Assembly: GCF_010015585.1 (NCBI RefSeq)
Contig: NW_022985067.1
Coordinates: 1,686,940 to 1,750,939 of the forward strand
Direction of reading: 5' to 3'
From: Eremomyces bilateralis CBS 781.70
Taxonomy: Eukaryota > Ascomycota > Dothideomycetes > Eremomycetales > Eremomycetaceae
DNA length: 64,000 nt
This document shows, piece by piece, positions 22,832-35,942 of the stretch (positions within the stretch are counted from its first letter, which is position 1; every line of letters begins with the position of its first letter). Below the pieces are notes generated by a model. It had not been told where the DNA came from and ran no database searches. It saw only the letters and a program-made list of their open reading frames with translations. Both the position numbers and the translations under genes were made by a program.

Positions 22832-24241
22832 ATGTTCGACAACGTTTGCAGTCTCCCCCTCTCCTCCGACCTTTTCGCTCAGGCCGTCCATCCCACCGAG
22901 CCCATCGTCGCGGTCGGCCTGCTGACGGGCCACGTCGCGGCGCTGCGGCTCCCTGCCGCCGACGACAACGGCGACGCGAGCGTGCTCAGTGCGGCGACGA
23001 CGGAGTCCGGGACCGGGACGATCGAGACGATCTGGCGGACGCGGCGGCATCAGGAGAGTTGTCGGAGCTTGGGGTTCAGCGTGGATGGGCGGACGCTATT
23101 TTCGGCGGGGGCGGATGGAGTGGTGAAGGCGGCGGAGACGGAGACGGGGGTGGTGAGGAGTAAGATTGTGTTGCCGGCGGAAAAGTATGCATCTCTCTAC
23201 CTTTTCTATGCATGATGGTTCTTCCTATGGATCGACCAATTGGCTAATTCGATGTCGTATAGGAACTCCCCCATCGACGCCGCCACCGTCCTCCACGTCC
23301 TCTCCCCACAAACCCTTCTCATCGGCACCGATTCCTCCGCCCTCCACCTCTACGACCTCCGCATCCCCTCCGCCCCTGCAGGAAACTCCACCACCTGGTT
23401 CCGCTCCTCTAAACCCCAGCAAACCCACCGCCCGCACGCCCCCTCCCACATCTCCTCCATCACGCCCTTCCCCCCCTCCGACACCAGCACCTCCGGCTAC
23501 AGCAAGCAATGGCTCAGCACCGGCGGCGGCACCGTCGCCGTGACGGACCTGCGGCGCGGTGTGCTCGCGCAGAGCGACGACGTAGGCGAGGAGCTGATGT
23601 GCTCGGCGTACGTGCCGCACTCCGGGCGGAAGGGGCGCGGGGATCAGATCCTGGTGGGGTCTGGGGAAGGGGAGGTGATGATATGGGAGCGGGGCCATTG
23701 GGATAGCTGGGGGGAGCGGATTAATCTAGGTGGGGGGAACGAGACGGTGGAGACGTTCGCGGTGTTGCCCGCGGGGTGCGGGGGAGTCAAGGGGAGTGTG
23801 GCGGCGATTGGGATGGGAATGAGTGATGATGGGTGGGGGAGGGTGAAGTTAGTGGATATCAAGGCGAGGAGAGTGGTGGGGGAGCTGTTGCATGAGGTGA
23901 AGGAGGATGTCACGGCGATCGGGTATGACGTGGCTGGCAGGCTGATCACTGGTGGGGGGTGCGTGCTGAAGGTGTGGCATGAGAAAGGCGAGGGCGAAGA
24001 GGAAGATGAGGAGGAGGATGAGGAGGGGGAGCAGGAGGAGGATCAGGAGGCTACAGTCAGTGCCAATGGCCACTCCAAGCGGGCTCCCGAAAGCGAGGAT
24101 GAAGAAGATTCCGACGACGATTCGGACAGCTCGATGGATATGCCGTCCAGGAACAAACCATCGCCGACGAAGAAGCCGAAGAGGAAGGGCAATCTGCCCA
24201 ACGGGGGGGTGGCGGAATTGGCGTTTGATGGGCTAGACTAG
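22832..24241 (+). CDS. JIP5: WD-repeat protein Jip5 (WDR55-like), ribosome biogenesis
   Basis: Exons 22832-23184 and 23263-24241 join in phase ([12 protein letters not shown]), giving 443 residues. The start [21 protein letters not shown], early repeat motif [12 protein letters not shown], then [20 protein letters not shown] and [16 protein letters not shown] match the Jip5/WDR55 family, a six- to seven-blade propeller. Later blades include [16 protein letters not shown] and [15 protein letters not shown]. The tail has a long Glu/Asp tract, a DSDDDSDSS cluster, a Lys-rich segment ([11 protein letters not shown]) and the conserved family ending [11 protein letters not shown]. Yeast Jip5 is nucleolar and needed for 60S subunit maturation. 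The second exon is very GC-rich at first, which creates long shadow frames. Confidence 0.92.
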
Positions 24242-24714
24242 GACAACTGACGGCGTATTGGAGGATATCAACAGCGTGCCGGCGTTGGTGAGTTTGTACG
24301 GCAGTTGGTCACTCGGTCAAGCTCCTCTTGTCCATGCTTGACTGGCGATAGGAATATCGAGGCGTTGAGGCATACATATGCTGCTCCAAATCCGCAGCAT
24401 CGAATGACAATGGAAGCACCACGGAATCAATACCTACCTAATAGGTCTCTATGACACTGAAAGAGGCTATCATCATCAATCTGGGGATTTTCCAGTCCGT
24501 TTGCCTCCGTCTGAAGTTTCACGTTCGGTTTTCTCACATGCAGCCTGCCGGTACTGCAGAAGTCGCTCAGTGAAATGGTTGCTTCTTGATTTTCGATTTC
24601 ACTTCGAGAGGCCAATCTTCTGTCTCTCACCTCTCACCCCTGTTCTTACTTTTTTCATAATCGTGTAGTTGAGGGCGCTTTTCTTCCTCAGATCAAGCGC
24701 AACTGCTTCCAAGG
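24242..24714. other. Intergenic region, 473 bases
   Basis: Jip5 3' flank and leader of the La-Arb1 gene (pyrimidine-rich near 24600-24690). Nothing else seen. Confidence 0.5.
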
Positions 24715-26623
24715 ATGGAGACTCAGGAGCTTCCTCACATCGAGGACCACCCTCAAGGTGACGATGTTCGTCGGCAGGTAAGGGTTTCCATTTCAGTCGT
24801 ATCATAAATATCTGCGGCTGGTATTCACGCAGCGAGCATTGTTCTATTCCATCCGGTGCCAATTTTTATCTTCAACATATCAGTCCGCACTAATATTGAC
24901 GTCCCCCAGGTCGAGTACTATTTCTCCGATGAGAACCTCCCCAACGACGCGTACCTCCTCGAAAAATGCTGCGGCTCCCAGAACCTTCCCGTCTCCATCA
25001 AGAAAATCTGCAGCTTCGCCATGATGCGGAAGTACAAGCCCTACAGCGCCGTCGTCGCCGCGCTGAAAAAGAGCATTTACCTCGACGTCGTCGACGACAA
25101 ACTCATCAAGCGCAAAATCCCCGTGATCCTCGAAGAGGTAATCAATGCGGAAGGGAAGCCCACGTACAAGAAGCCTCCACCGAATCTAGGTTTCCCCGAG
25201 AATCCTAAGGGACCAACGTCGAACAACCCGTTGATGACCAAGGGGATGCTGAAGCCGACCGGGTTCGAGGAATGGTACGCGGACCCGCCCGTGACGCCGG
25301 CGGAGTACAAGGACGATGCGCAGTGCTACGATTCGAGCATCCCGATCGACGCGCGCATGGAGGCGGCGGTGCAGCGCTACAGCTCGCGGAGGAAGTTCCA
25401 TCAAACGACCAGGGCGATCTTTAGCGCGTGGTTTCGCTACAGTGGCTGGGATGCCGGTCAGCGTCAGTTTCAGGGGAACGACCCGAAGGAGCTGGAGAAT
25501 TACGACGCGCCTGAAATCGCGCTGATGACATCGACGTTGTTCCCTGGCGAGGATAAAGATGATCGGACGAAGTGGGTGGTGGATTTCGAGGGCGTGGCGA
25601 AGGGGTTTCTGTACGTTGCCATGCTGGTTCCATTGGTTATGCAATCGTTTGACCTTCGATAGCTCTACTCGCCTTCCGAACATCATCCATTTATCCACCG
25701 ACAATGTGAAGACTGCCACCCAGGTCATGATGAACATGTACAACTGGTTCCTCCACCACAACGTATGCCCCGAGTACAGCCAAGAGATCCTCGCCGCTCG
25801 CTCCGTCTGCGGGTTGGCGTACGAGGAATATCAAAAGTTGATCCCCCTTCGCCCGCAGCTTCCCGGCCCTTTCAATATCGCCATGTCGACGCTGTTTGAT
25901 GGCTACTACGGCCCCATTTACGGGGAAGGGGATGAGATGGTGGACATTAAGGAGCTTCGCGCACAGGCGTGGGACGGCATCATCATGAATTATCACATGG
26001 CGAAGGTCAGCGTCTTGGCTGGGTTGGCCGCGATTGCATCGGAGAAGCTGTTCGCTGCTATCATTGACAAGCCTGCCGGTGATGAGACGGAGAAGAACAA
26101 CGGCAATGGCGAGTGCAAGGATGGTCCATCTTCCGACGCTGAAGAAACCTGGGTCGAGCGCGCCAAAGCGCTTATCCCCAACGTTCGCCGCGAAGTGGGC
26201 CTCCAAATCACCGCGATCGAACCGCCAAGCCAAGAGGTAAAAGAGCTCTACCACCAGCATAACGCGGAAGTCCGGAAGAAGATGCACCTAAAGCCACTAG
26301 GGACACTTCGCTGCAAGCTCTGGGACCTTCAGACGTTCCGGCCGCGAGATATGCCCGAGCAGAAGCGCTGGAATCCAGGCGAGATCGTGGTTCACCTCGA
26401 GGACGACCTTCTCGCGCATTGCTTCGTGGGGATGAAGATCAGCGGGGTGATTCGGATGGTAGAAGAGGGGCACTGGTGGCTGGATGAAGTGTTGGCGGCA
26501 TTTCCAAGCTTCTATACGTTGCTATTAAATGACATTCAAGTCAAGAAGTGGAGGCAGCCCCGATGGCTGAAGAGCAGAGAGGAGCAGGAGAAGGCGGAGC
26601 GGAAGGATAACATGGCGGAATAA
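24715..26623 (+). CDS. ARB1: La-motif/Arb1 fusion: putative Argonaute siRNA-chaperone subunit
   Basis: Inferred exons are 24715-24777, 24910-25610 and 25663-26623, giving 574 residues. Residues about 15-95 form a La-type winged helix (RRQVEYYFSDENLPNDAY ... KKICSFAMMRKYKPYSAVVAAL). Aligning by eye to human La, the oligo-U-contacting Q20, Y23, Y24, D33, F35 and F55 correspond to Q21, Y24, Y25, D34, Y36 and F57. From about residue 130 the protein is Arb1: KPTGFEEWYADPPVTPAEY, the basic YSSRRKFH stretch, TKWVVDFEGVAKGFLSTRLPN and HHNVCPEYSQEILAARSVC, running to the C-terminus. In fission yeast Arb1 sits in the ARC complex with Ago1 and Arb2, holds duplex siRNA and is needed for heterochromatin. 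No RRM follows the La motif. Both domains share exon 2 with no intron between them, so the fusion is not an exon-joining artefact. Confidence 0.88.
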
Positions 26624-26755: not shown

Positions 26756-28042
26756 TTAAGGCTTCAAAAGGAGCTTTCCCGTTGTCTTACGGCTTTCAAT
26801 GTCCTATAAATGTTAGCGGGAATCCACGCCATCGTTGTCTCTGAACTTACCGCGTGTGCCCGAGCAACGTCCTTCAACGGATAGATCTCATGGATCTTAC
26901 ATCCCATGTTGTGGTGGATGAGGAAGTCGACCACCTCGCCCATGTACTTCTGGAACTCCTCCCTGGTCTGGATATAAGGGAACAAGCTCGATCGGAGCAG
27001 CTTGATGTTCTTCGCGCTGAGCCGGCTGGATCGATGTTAGCCCTGGCATGTAGTTTCAACATCCAATGAACCCAGGTACTTACGCGATTTGGAACGCTGG
27101 CACCGCTCCACTCGAGTTGCCAAAGCTCACCATCGTGCCTTTCCGCGCCACCAAGCTCAGAGTCAAATCAAACGTGGATGCACCAACACTGTCGAACACA
27201 GCTTTGACGCCCTCACCGTTTGTCTTCTCATTCACCACCCTCCTCAGTTCCTCCTCCTCATACCCCACCGACACCTCCGCACCATAATTCCTCGCCATCT
27301 CCCTCTTCGTCTCGTCGCTCGCCACGGCGATAGTCCGACCACCTATATGCTTCAACAACTGGCACAGCCACCCCCCCACGCCCCCCGCCGCCGCTGTCAC
27401 GAGCACCCAATCCCCCTTCTTCACCTCGTACGCCTCGCGGATCATCGTCCATGCCGTTAGCGCTTGCAACATGGCCGCGCACGCGATCTCCGGCTTCATC
27501 CCGTCCGGGAGCTTGTATGCCCGGTCCGCGCCCACCGTGACGTATTCAGTATACGTGCCCTCCTGCATAAAGACAACCTGGTCCCCGGGCTGCAGTCCGT
27601 AGGTCTCCCCTGAGCCGAGCGCGGCCACGGTGCCAGCGGCTTCGCGGCCGAGGATGTAGGGGAAGGAGGGGGCTTTGTAGAGGCCGGTTCGGAAGTAGGT
27701 ATCGATGTAGTTGACTCCGATGAAGGCGTTCTTGACGAGGATCTGTCCGGGTTGGGGCTCCGGGACGGGGAGGTGGGTGGTGTATTGCAGGACGGAGGTG
27801 TCGCCGTTCTCGGCGATTTGCACACCGGCCATCGTGGATGGGATGGGATTGGATGCCATGATGGAGGAATGGAAATAATGAGAGGAAATAGGAGGGCCAA
27901 AAGGAGGACTTGACGCTTTGGGGAAGGTGCTTAGAAAGAACGGTTGTACTCTCGAAGATCCGAGATGGAGGATTGACTGAACTGCGAGCTTCGGAGGGGT
28001 TAGTCGGGCGAATTGAGGGACACAACACTTATAAATGAGCAT
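26756..28042 (-). CDS. NADPH quinone oxidoreductase, zeta-crystallin/Zta1-like (MDR family)
   Basis: Exons 28042-27084, 27025-26851 and 26803-26756, giving 393 residues from the first ATG. MDR features in order: GVNYIDTYFRTGLY, GREAAGTVAALG, PGDQVVF, the nucleotide-binding VTAAAGGVGGWLCQL, and AVFDSVGASTFD. No zinc ligands, as expected for the QOR group. It would reduce quinones or enones with NADPH; yeast Zta1 also binds AU-rich RNA. The first 61 residues before a second Met (MASNPIPSTM, near 27859) lack any acidic residue and are rich in Ser, Arg, Lys and hydrophobics, like a mitochondrial presequence. The last coding exon is only 48 bases. The stop lies 132 bases from the stop of the convergent La-Arb1 gene. 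Confidence 0.92.
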
Positions 28043-28725
28043 TGCGGAGCTATCGGTCGCTAGGAGGAATAGATTCGGAATTTACACTTCTGCTTAGAGC
28101 AGTCTGCTCGGGGTATATGTGATACTACAGGTTAACTATGGCGTCTGAAAACGTAATATCCCCGCTCTCATGCGGATCGCAGAATTATCGGCGTTAAAGA
28201 TAGGCGGCGTTAAGATAGGCTTCCACCAGCAGCCGAACCTCCGCATTCGGGAGCGCCACAATACCGTACAGGTGTTCAAGATGGGACACAAGATATGATG
28301 ACTGCCGGTGCGATAAGGAGGGTATCTCTAGACGCGTATGCGGCTGTATATTCGAGACTTTAATTGGAAAGGATACGCCCAATTACCGCCGTACATGGAC
28401 GCAGTCACAAAGTCCGCAACAAGGCGTGCAAGGATGGAATCACATCTTGACAAGGCCTTTAGTAGTAGAGAAAAGCGGTCCTTGTTCAATGGTTATGGTA
28501 AGGAATAGATAGTCGTTCGAATGATTTGCCATGCCGTCTCATACACCATGCTTCGCTACTCGAAAGTCGCTAGCAGACAATTAGAAGAATATTACACGAA
28601 TCAAAACCTTTTACCTCGACATGCCACGCAGACGAACAAGCCGAAGATCCCATGCACAGCAGAATCCCGACCTTATGTACTCCTTGCTAGGCCACTTCCC
28701 TTCCATTCATCATGTCCCATCAACC
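28043..28725. other. Intergenic region, 683 bases
   Basis: Leader of the quinone oxidoreductase and 3' flank of the GH72 gene. A short imperfect direct repeat (GGCGTTAA-A-GATAGGC twice) lies at about 28190-28217. Otherwise nothing seen. Confidence 0.45.
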
Positions 28726-33059: not shown

Positions 33060-33218
33060 TACCAGCTCTCACTCACTTTAATTTTCACTCTCACTCTCCT
33101 CTCACTCATCTTTAAATCTCTCTCACACAGTTCTCTCACATCAATTCCTCACCAATTTCTAGTCACTCACAAAAACTCATTGAGAGCAACACACTGAAAG
33201 TAACACACAACTAACGTG
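33060..33218 (+). promoter_or_regulatory. Probable internal promoter and leader of the Ulp1-like gene
   Basis: Repeated CTCTCACT words, a TTTAAAT element near 33111 and an A/C-rich leader run up to the ATG at 33219. This looks like a second fungal promoter, giving the shorter form that starts MFSHQQFEEE. Confidence 0.4.
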
Positions 33219-35942
33219 ATGTTTTCACACCAGCAGTTTGAAGAAGAAGGGAACCTTCCTGTCGAGATGGAGGGAGTGGAGATGAAGGAAGATGTTGATG
33301 TTGGGGAAAAGGAGGAGTGGTGGTCGGCCACTTTGGTTGGCATTGTCCCGCCCAGAGCAGGGGATGTCAAGATGGCCTTCGGGCCGAGTTGCCAGGAAGG
33401 GGACTGCGAGGACTTCGTGTTCGGGGTGCCGATGGATTACCGGGCCGAAGGGCGGCGGGGGCGACGCGCCAAGAGTGTTAGCCCCCACCAATGGGAGCTC
33501 TTCATGGTCACCATGGGAAGTGGCCGGCTCCCTGCCATCCTCAACGTCGCTGCCGCCGGAGCTGCATCTGTCGGTCGCTCTCTCCAACTCCGTGCCGTCG
33601 ACGAGCGCAAACGGCCGTATGTGTCAACCGATGGCATTGTCCCCGTCATTTGCAATTGCGCATCGTCAAATGTGCAAAACATGCTGAATGACGCGATTAT
33701 TGACGCGGGACGGTCATCGGAAGTAATCAAACGCTACGGACCCGACCCTCGCATTCTGCTCAAGCGTCGCCGCGCAGCATCCAGCTCACGAACGCGTCGA
33801 TCGTCACCTCCCGGACCTCGCATCATCGACAGGAAATGCCTCTCAACCCCAGTCCCTTCACCATCACAGGCGCCCTCCCCACCCTCATTGCCGAAGCGAA
33901 AGAAGTCGCCGCCAGAGACAGAAAACCAGCTCACGCCAGACGTGGGCAAACGGCATTGCTCGACGAACGGCCGCGTCCACGGGTGGCGGAGGGCGCTCAA
34001 GATGAGCGCCGACAAACTCGCCGATGATGTTGCCGGCTTCCACATCTCCGATGAGGAGGAAGAAATCCAGCAGCTGGAGTGGACAGAGCAAGGCGCCCTG
34101 GATTTCTGGGGGAGGACTAGTTTGGCATCTGTCATGCCTGCCACTCCAGCTGCTGCGATTGAACCTTGCTCGATTGCCGCAGCTGCACCGTCCAACATCC
34201 TAACACCCGCCGAAAGACCTGCGACACAGTCGAGGCAACCCGCCGACGTCCAAACCCCCGTCGAAAAACCTCCGACACAGTCGGGGCAACCAACTCCCGC
34301 CGAAAGACCTCTGACGAGGCAACCGTTCGACGTCCATACCCCGATCGTTTACACACCCACCAACCAGCTGGCTGGAAAAACCAGAATCCACCTGAAGAAC
34401 CTGTCAAGACTGTTCACTCGTCGCGCTCCTCGCCGTCAAGTACTTGGGGAAGAGAGAGAGGAAGTGCAGGCGATCAAGCCTAGCGACCATGCTGAAGCAT
34501 CACGACATGGGGAAGATCGAGCAGCCCAAGTGGTGCCGACTCCGAAAACCGGGCTGGTCAGCCAAATCACCCACGCACTCAAGAAAGCCGGCGAAAGCAT
34601 TCTGTCCCCGGCGACAAAAGCTCCCAAGGTACAAACTCCAGCGATAAAAACACCGGAGACCCGGACGCCGGCATCGACTCCAGCTGTCGCCCCGCAGCCA
34701 GCAAAGCGACCAGTGAAGCTATCAACCCCGGAGTCGAGATCTCTTATTTTCCGTAAACCCAAGCCGGCGACTCCAGCCCGTGCGAAGCCAAAACAAGCTC
34801 CAGGGCCGTCCACACCACATTCACAGCAGAGCCAGATTGCCCCGTCCGTCCTTGAAAACACCCCTTCTCCCGCCACCTCATTTGTCGACGCGTTAGATCC
34901 GGCATTGATTGGCAGAATCAGCCTCCAACCGCTCGCCTTCCGGCCCATCGAGATATCGTCTCGAGCATCACCAGCCGCATTGAGTCCTACAAATCGGGCT
35001 GAGCAAGACCAGGCGAAGGGGAAATCGCCAGCATCATCGGTGTCAGAATATTCACCATCTCCTTCTGCTGGTTCGGAGTCCCCAGTCGAGCGTGCTCCAC
35101 TCATCTGTGCGTTGTCGGAGTCCCAACGTCAGGTGGTGGAGGACGTCGAGACGCATCTCCAGATCCACGCACCGATCTCAAGTCGCGAGAGAGAAGCTGT
35201 CACTGTGAGAGACCTCCAGACCCTGTCCGACCAAGAGTGGCTGAACGACAATGTCATCAACACCGTCCTCAAATACCTCACCGAAGCTGCCGCACAGCAC
35301 GCAACAACCACGAAACCTCCTCGGGGCAAAAACAACCCTCCTGTCGTCGGAGCACTTGGCACGCAGTGGTTCACTACCTATCAGACGAAAGAGAAAGAAG
35401 GCGGTGCCGGCGCAGCAACCATGGGCCGCTGGTTCAACCGGGCGAAACTCGTGAAAAACAACCTCCTCTACTGCAAGTTCCTCGTCCTTCCTGTCCACCT
35501 TGGGAACCACTGGGTCATGGTGGTTATCGAGCCATTGCCGAAGCGAATTCACTATTTCGACAGCATGCACGGAAAACGCGCGGACGTCATCGAGGCACTC
35601 CACGACATCCTTGAGTGCCAGTTGTACGACGATATCTACGAGCAGCGGGTGCAGTGGCGCGTCTCGTACGGTCCCACCAATTCGCAGACCAATGGGAATG
35701 ATTGCGGGGTCTTCTCCATTTGGAACGCGATCGCGACCGTCACGGGCCGATCAACAATAGAGGAAGTCACTGCGGCGGGCATGCCGAACGCCCGATATTG
35801 GCTCAAGGCGGTCCTGTGCAATGGAGGGTTCACGGGTGAGTTTGCCCTGCCGTTTGAACAAGAGTTGAATCTTGGCTGGGATGATTTGAAGAAGGTCATG
35901 GAGCTGGACGCGTTGGAGGCTGCCAGCATTCCACGACTATGA
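33219..35942 (+). CDS. Ulp1-type SUMO protease (C48 cysteine peptidase)
   Basis: One open frame of 907 residues from the ATG at 33219; a longer form may use the exon at 32544. The first 600 residues are low in order: acidic head, basic Ser/Arg stretches (KRRRAASSSRTRRSS), and a TP-rich repeat region. The catalytic domain fills about residues 640-900. It has VTVRDLQTLSDQEWLNDNVIN, the family's substrate-groove start, then catalytic H764 in LGNHWVMVVI, D781 in IHYFDSMHGK, Q823 (oxyanion) and C829 in SQTNGNDCGVF, spaced as in yeast Ulp1 (Q-x5-C). It would process or remove SUMO, probably at the nucleus given the basic N-terminus. Whether it is the Ulp1 or Ulp2 functional equivalent is not decidable here; the C-terminal catalytic position favours Ulp1. 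Confidence 0.9.
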   Translation: MFSHQQFEEEGNLPVEMEGVEMKEDVDVGEKEEWWSATLVGIVPPRAGDVKMAFGPSCQEGDCEDFVFGVPMDYRAEGRRGRRAKSVSPHQWELFMVTMGSGRLPAILNVAAAGAASVGRSLQLRAVDERKRPYVSTDGIVPVICNCASSNVQNMLNDAIIDAGRSSEVIKRYGPDPRILLKRRRAASSSRTRRSSPPGPRIIDRKCLSTPVPSPSQAPSPPSLPKRKKSPPETENQLTPDVGKRHCSTNGRVHGWRRALKMSADKLADDVAGFHISDEEEEIQQLEWTEQGALDFWGRTSLASVMPATPAAAIEPCSIAAAAPSNILTPAERPATQSRQPADVQTPVEKPPTQSGQPTPAERPLTRQPFDVHTPIVYTPTNQLAGKTRIHLKNLSRLFTRRAPRRQVLGEEREEVQAIKPSDHAEASRHGEDRAAQVVPTPKTGLVSQITHALKKAGESILSPATKAPKVQTPAIKTPETRTPASTPAVAPQPAKRPVKLSTPESRSLIFRKPKPATPARAKPKQAPGPSTPHSQQSQIAPSVLENTPSPATSFVDALDPALIGRISLQPLAFRPIEISSRASPAALSPTNRAEQDQAKGKSPASSVSEYSPSPSAGSESPVERAPLICALSESQRQVVEDVETHLQIHAPISSREREAVTVRDLQTLSDQEWLNDNVINTVLKYLTEAAAQHATTTKPPRGKNNPPVVGALGTQWFTTYQTKEKEGGAGAATMGRWFNRAKLVKNNLLYCKFLVLPVHLGNHWVMVVIEPLPKRIHYFDSMHGKRADVIEALHDILECQLYDDIYEQRVQWRVSYGPTNSQTNGNDCGVFSIWNAIATVTGRSTIEEVTAAGMPNARYWLKAVLCNGGFTGEFALPFEQELNLGWDDLKKVMELDALEAASIPRL
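34200..34345 (+). repeat. Degenerate TP-rich tandem repeat in the Ulp1-like protein
   Basis: Three related units of about 40-55 bases encode T-P-[AV]-E-[RK]-P-x-T-Q-S-x-Q-P, the third shortened, each followed or preceded by DVxTP. The Thr-Pro sites are potential proline-directed kinase targets. Confidence 0.65.

Follow-up and report, generated by a model that had tools for sequence, protein, structure and literature searches.

A La motif joined to the Argonaute-chaperone subunit Arb1 in Eremomyces bilateralis: a putative grip on RNA 3' ends

Why should an Arb1 gene begin with a La motif, and would that motif still hold RNA? The loading of siRNA duplexes into fungal Argonaute, and the part that Arb1 plays in it, are poorly understood outside fission yeast. 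There, Arb1 and Arb2 are required for duplex siRNA loading onto Ago1 and hinder release of the passenger strand (PMC5985592), and purified Arb1 inhibits slicing, with passenger release again hindered (PMC13136243). The Arb1 of PMC11237814 is an ABC transporter that merely shares the name.

The gene occupies positions 24715-26623 on the forward strand of the window, i.e. the whole stretch of 64,000 nucleotides that was analysed, and its three exons would encode a product of 574 amino acids. The splice model adopted is the best supported among the eight combinations that stay open. Exon 1 (24715-24777) carries the start codon, an acidic N-terminus and the first turn of the La motif, placed by the splice model and by the Pfam La match from residue 18; its last codon (24775-24777) specifies the pocket residue Q21. 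Intron 1 (24778-24909, 132 nt, GTAAGG...CAG) lies in phase 0 between Q21 and V22, follows the GT-AG rule and has a CTRAY branch-like site 20 nt before its end. Exon 2 (24910-25610) encodes La motif residues 22-92, a linker (residues 93-130) and Arb1 from residue 131, as indicated by the open frame, the Pfam matches and the coding signal of the linker. Intron 2 (25611-25662, 52 nt, GTACGT...TAG), within the Arb1 domain, is also GT-AG but, unlike intron 1, was found to have no branch-like site; its donor was preferred to an in-frame alternative at 25605, which is the poorer fit to the GT consensus. The remaining Arb1 domain, a basic C-terminal tail and the stop codon are assigned to exon 3 (25663-26623) by the splice model and Pfam. 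An in-frame stop at 24670 lies 15 codons upstream of the ATG. Codon 130 is a further in-frame ATG; it lies where the Arb1 domain begins and leaves room for an additional isoform devoid of the La motif. The coordinates, frames and domains listed in the earlier note on this DNA agree with this splice model and with the Pfam matches.

The protein matches two Pfam families, and only these two, at E<=1. The La motif (PF05383) covers residues 18-75 with a complete profile (1-59 of 59), at 67.9 bits against a cut-off of 37.1 (E 6.8e-19), and Arb1 (PF09692) covers residues 131-554 (profile 4-403 of 403), at 359 bits against a cut-off of 25 (E 4.8e-107). Codon log-odds, trained on eight other long ORFs of the window (an uncurated set), are positive in the reading frame for the La motif (0.294), the linker (0.112) and Arb1 (0.182). 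They turn negative when the forward frame is shifted either way; on the reverse strand, the La motif and the linker each have one frame with a small positive value that stays below that of the reading frame (0.084 and 0.035, respectively). Since both curated cut-offs are passed and the in-frame log-odds are positive, we do not consider the domain matches to be due to chance. We reject the reading of two adjacent genes taken for one, as the La motif, the linker and Arb1 lie within one exon with coding signal throughout. The gene is thus almost certainly a real fusion, as first proposed from the continuous frame of exon 2, which indeed stays open from the La motif across a linker of positive coding signal into Arb1, and it would be transcribed as a single mRNA. 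The accompanying claim that this exon encodes a full La motif must be amended: no intron separates La motif and Arb1, but residues 18-21 of the motif are in exon 1.

To which class does the protein belong? No Pfam match to an RRM after the La motif was obtained at E<=1, in agreement with the earlier note, and none to the DM15 region that marks the C-terminus of LARP1. Because neither was found, we class the protein, from its domain content, as an Arb1 with an appended La motif and as neither a genuine La nor a LARP1. Among the matches in solved structures, the meaningful ones are all La-family chains and all fall on the La part. Five Trigger Factor entries (E 0.35-0.81) were judged to be chance matches. 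AlphaFold2 run without an alignment reached a mean pLDDT of 35.7 for the whole protein and 46.5 for residues 1-100, too low for use; from its sequence, the protein is presumed to have an intact fold.

The origin of the La motif can be approached within the same genome, which comprises 26.6 Mb in 62 contigs; the locus counts given here may be lower bounds. Three La-motif loci were found. One of them, on contig C12, is a genuine La gene with a La motif (73.3 bits) and an RRM_1 domain (38.1 bits). The La motif of the fusion is identical to that of this genuine La at 42 of 86 positions, without gaps; the corresponding figures are 18/72 for the fungus's own LARP1-like protein, 22/74 for human La, 29/76 for Dictyostelium La, 28/75 for human LARP1 and 28/76 for human LARP6. 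In a tree of seven La motifs, the fusion motif groups with the genuine La of the same fungus at 94/92, a support below the starred level of 95/80 and obtained from seven rows only, and its branch is the longer of the two (1.02 versus 0.49). Moreover, the two genes are interrupted at the same point, by a phase-0 intron that separates the corresponding Q and V codons. Given this sequence kinship and the shared intron, the simplest reading is that a duplication of the 5' part of a genuine La gene, whose RRM was left behind, gave rise to the motif, which has since diverged. The shared intron could alternatively reflect parallel gain at a CAG/GT site, or an intron that is ancient across the La family. 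As about half of the La-motif residues have changed, the duplication is probably old.

An old duplication should be shared by many related fungi, and it is indeed likely that a La motif followed by Arb1 is simply the standard Arb1 of a large fungal group, inherited in the ordinary way and already present, if uncommented, in domain databases. This reading concerns novelty, and any of the mechanisms proposed below could go with it. Our literature search returned no paper with both 'Arb1' and 'La motif', a result that has no bearing on domain databases. Scans for relatives gave 121 pattern matches in viral contigs and four in prokaryote genome contigs, none of them confirmed, as expected for a fungal gene. 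Our reading covers the gene in one genome, and what we regard as new is the kinship of its La motif with the fungus's own genuine La, which persists elsewhere together with its RRM.

Whether the motif still binds RNA depends on how its pocket is read. The earlier note had aligned by eye the human La residues Q20, Y23, Y24, D33, F35 and F55, whose numbering we keep, and had concluded that the binding of 3' U-ended RNA should be intact. All six positions do align, and five are identical, F35 corresponding to Y36 here. However, positions 20, 24, 33 and 55 are identical in all seven La motifs compared; position 23 is Y in five motifs, that of the fusion included, and F in two, one being the genuine La of this fungus; and all six other motifs have F at position 35. 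Since these residues are common to motifs that include that of human LARP1, which prefers poly(A), we read them as the hallmark of a La motif and not as the mark of a U binder. The affinity of the LARP1 La motif for A6 exceeds that for U6 11-fold; the motif requires a free 3'-OH and does not need an RRM, whereas uridylate binding by La is the joint work of La motif and RRM (PMC11259064). The two positions directly after F55, which the earlier note leaves aside, set the fusion motif apart from the other six: position 56 is A instead of N, K or H (N56>A), and position 57 is M instead of R or K (R57>M). In LARP1, the equivalent His368 stacks on a base and the backbone amide of Arg369 holds the terminal phosphate (PMC11259064), so that A at 56 should affect the base contact and M at 57 perhaps less. 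Together with the change of F35 to Y, these substitutions may weaken RNA binding. The pocket is thus conserved, as first claimed, and makes 3'-end recognition plausible, but its U specificity finds no support. On balance, we consider that the La motif probably does still bind RNA 3' ends, and it would recognise a free 3'-OH while discriminating little, by itself, between bases.

The same substitutions, each of them unique among the seven motifs, could instead mean that the La motif has given up useful RNA binding and now contributes to Arb1 as a folding element or a protein-binding surface, for instance in contacts with Argonaute or Arb2. The missing RRM partner and the longer branch of the motif point in this direction. 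Against it, the pocket is otherwise kept, with Y23 retained where the fungus's own La has F, and the motif is still net basic (14 K+R versus 9 D+E). We regard this scaffold role as unlikely, if worth keeping in mind.

The descent of the motif from a genuine La suggests a different cargo. It might capture RNAs that end in 3' U, for example tRNA trailers or transcripts of Pol III, and then deliver them to Argonaute or, conversely, exclude them from it; human La is reported to prevent tRNA fragments from entering the microRNA pathway (Hasler et al. 2016, cited in PMC10191329). A delivery of such RNAs to Argonaute was the function first suggested for this gene. The lack of an RRM and a pocket that is not U-specific (PMC11259064) speak against such a cargo, a separate genuine La with an RRM is present for such RNAs, and in Naumovozyma castellii the loss of LHP1, a separate La protein, had little effect on silencing (PMC7528652). 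U capture in either sense appears improbable.

Our tentative proposal is that the gene encodes this fungus's Arb1, a subunit of an ARC-type complex, in which the La motif acts as a grip on RNA 3'-OH ends, probably those of siRNA duplexes. With Arb1 docked on Argonaute, its La motif would grasp a short RNA by the exposed 3'-OH overhang, the guide being held by Argonaute itself; the strand so grasped would most likely be the passenger strand of an incoming siRNA duplex. Such a clamp could help duplex siRNA to be loaded or retained, and could protect the 3' end against exonucleases and tailing. A grip of this kind is plausible because the LARP1 La motif binds 3'-OH ends in the absence of an RRM (PMC11259064), and a duplex end is proposed because fission yeast Arb1 and Arb2 load duplex siRNA (PMC5985592, PMC13136243). 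That the target is specifically an siRNA duplex is a more doubtful point. The further idea that the ARC complex checks or clamps the free 3'-OH of the duplex at loading, which would place a checkpoint in the loading factor and not in Argonaute, we consider rather unlikely, though possible. Two further observations count against the proposal: with 22/74 identities to human La and 28/75 to human LARP1, the La motif shows no greater similarity to the former, and silencing in N. castellii was little affected by loss of LHP1 (PMC7528652). That the La part instead promotes release or turnover of the cleaved strand from Argonaute in cis, as the separate La of flies is reported to do by enhancing multiple turnover by RISC (Liu et al. 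2011, cited in PMC7528652), is very improbable, as fission yeast Arb1 does the opposite in hindering slicing and passenger release (PMC13136243) and loss of LHP1 had little effect (PMC7528652).

The genome seems to contain the parts for an ARC-type complex, since Arb1, Arb2, Argonaute, Dicer and RdRP loci occur together in it. The fusion is the single Arb1 locus; there are two Argonaute, three RdRP and two Dicer loci. A separate Arb2 gene is found on contig C21 (310387-311441), matched by the newer Arb2 family, and its long frame runs on into an acidic, low-complexity C-terminal region. An Arb2-like match on contig C19 was set aside as a partner because a histone deacetylase domain immediately precedes it; the two domains lie at 204372-206497, in the layout of the Hda1/Clr3 type. 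The bacterial Hen1 model (2'-O-methylation) gave two matches, at 24.2 and 20.6 bits, far under its cut-off of 340; a locus examined in this search (L031) looks like another methyltransferase.

The neighbourhood of the gene in the window is as follows. Upstream, on the same strand, 23216-24241 encodes a WD-repeat protein with an acidic, lysine-rich tail and a weak match to WDR55 (29.5 bits against a cut-off of 200). Downstream, on the opposite strand, 27080-28081 encodes a zinc-binding dehydrogenase or alcohol dehydrogenase-like protein, and this is likely to be a quinone oxidoreductase. A 912-residue open frame at 33204-35942 has a Ulp1-type protease domain in its C-terminal part (50.2 bits).

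If the proposed grip exists, a fungal Argonaute chaperone would have gained its own reader of RNA 3' ends by capturing the La motif of a genuine La, and what La is reported to do in RISC turnover and in excluding tRNA fragments from Argonaute would be tied to a physical link within one protein. The fusion also offers a concrete handle on Arb1, as single pocket mutations could split its role at Argonaute from the recognition of RNA ends.

How does this protein compare with known systems? In Neurospora crassa, NCU06316 is a putative Arb1, annotated by similarity (PMC4203796), and is thus alike by description, the level at which we compare it. Its knock-out arrests perithecium development, with no asci or ascospores formed (PMC4203796, PMC6904875), which suggests that Arb1 is important in filamentous fungi. 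With LARP1, the fusion protein has in common a La motif without an adjacent RRM and the pocket residues, but it differs in giving no DM15 match and in a motif that is 50% identical to the fungus's own La and 25% to its own LARP1-like protein. The genuine La of the fungus (LARP3) is alike in its La motif, at 42 of 86 residues, and in the position and phase of the intron; the fusion differs from it in having no RRM, a different C-terminal domain and changed residues at positions 56 and 57. Fission yeast Arb1 has about 400 residues and would have no room for a La motif. The likeness to the Arb1 of the ARC complex lies in the full-length match to PF09692 and in the Argonaute, Dicer, RdRP and Arb2 loci alongside, and the difference in the additional N-terminal La motif with its 38-residue linker.
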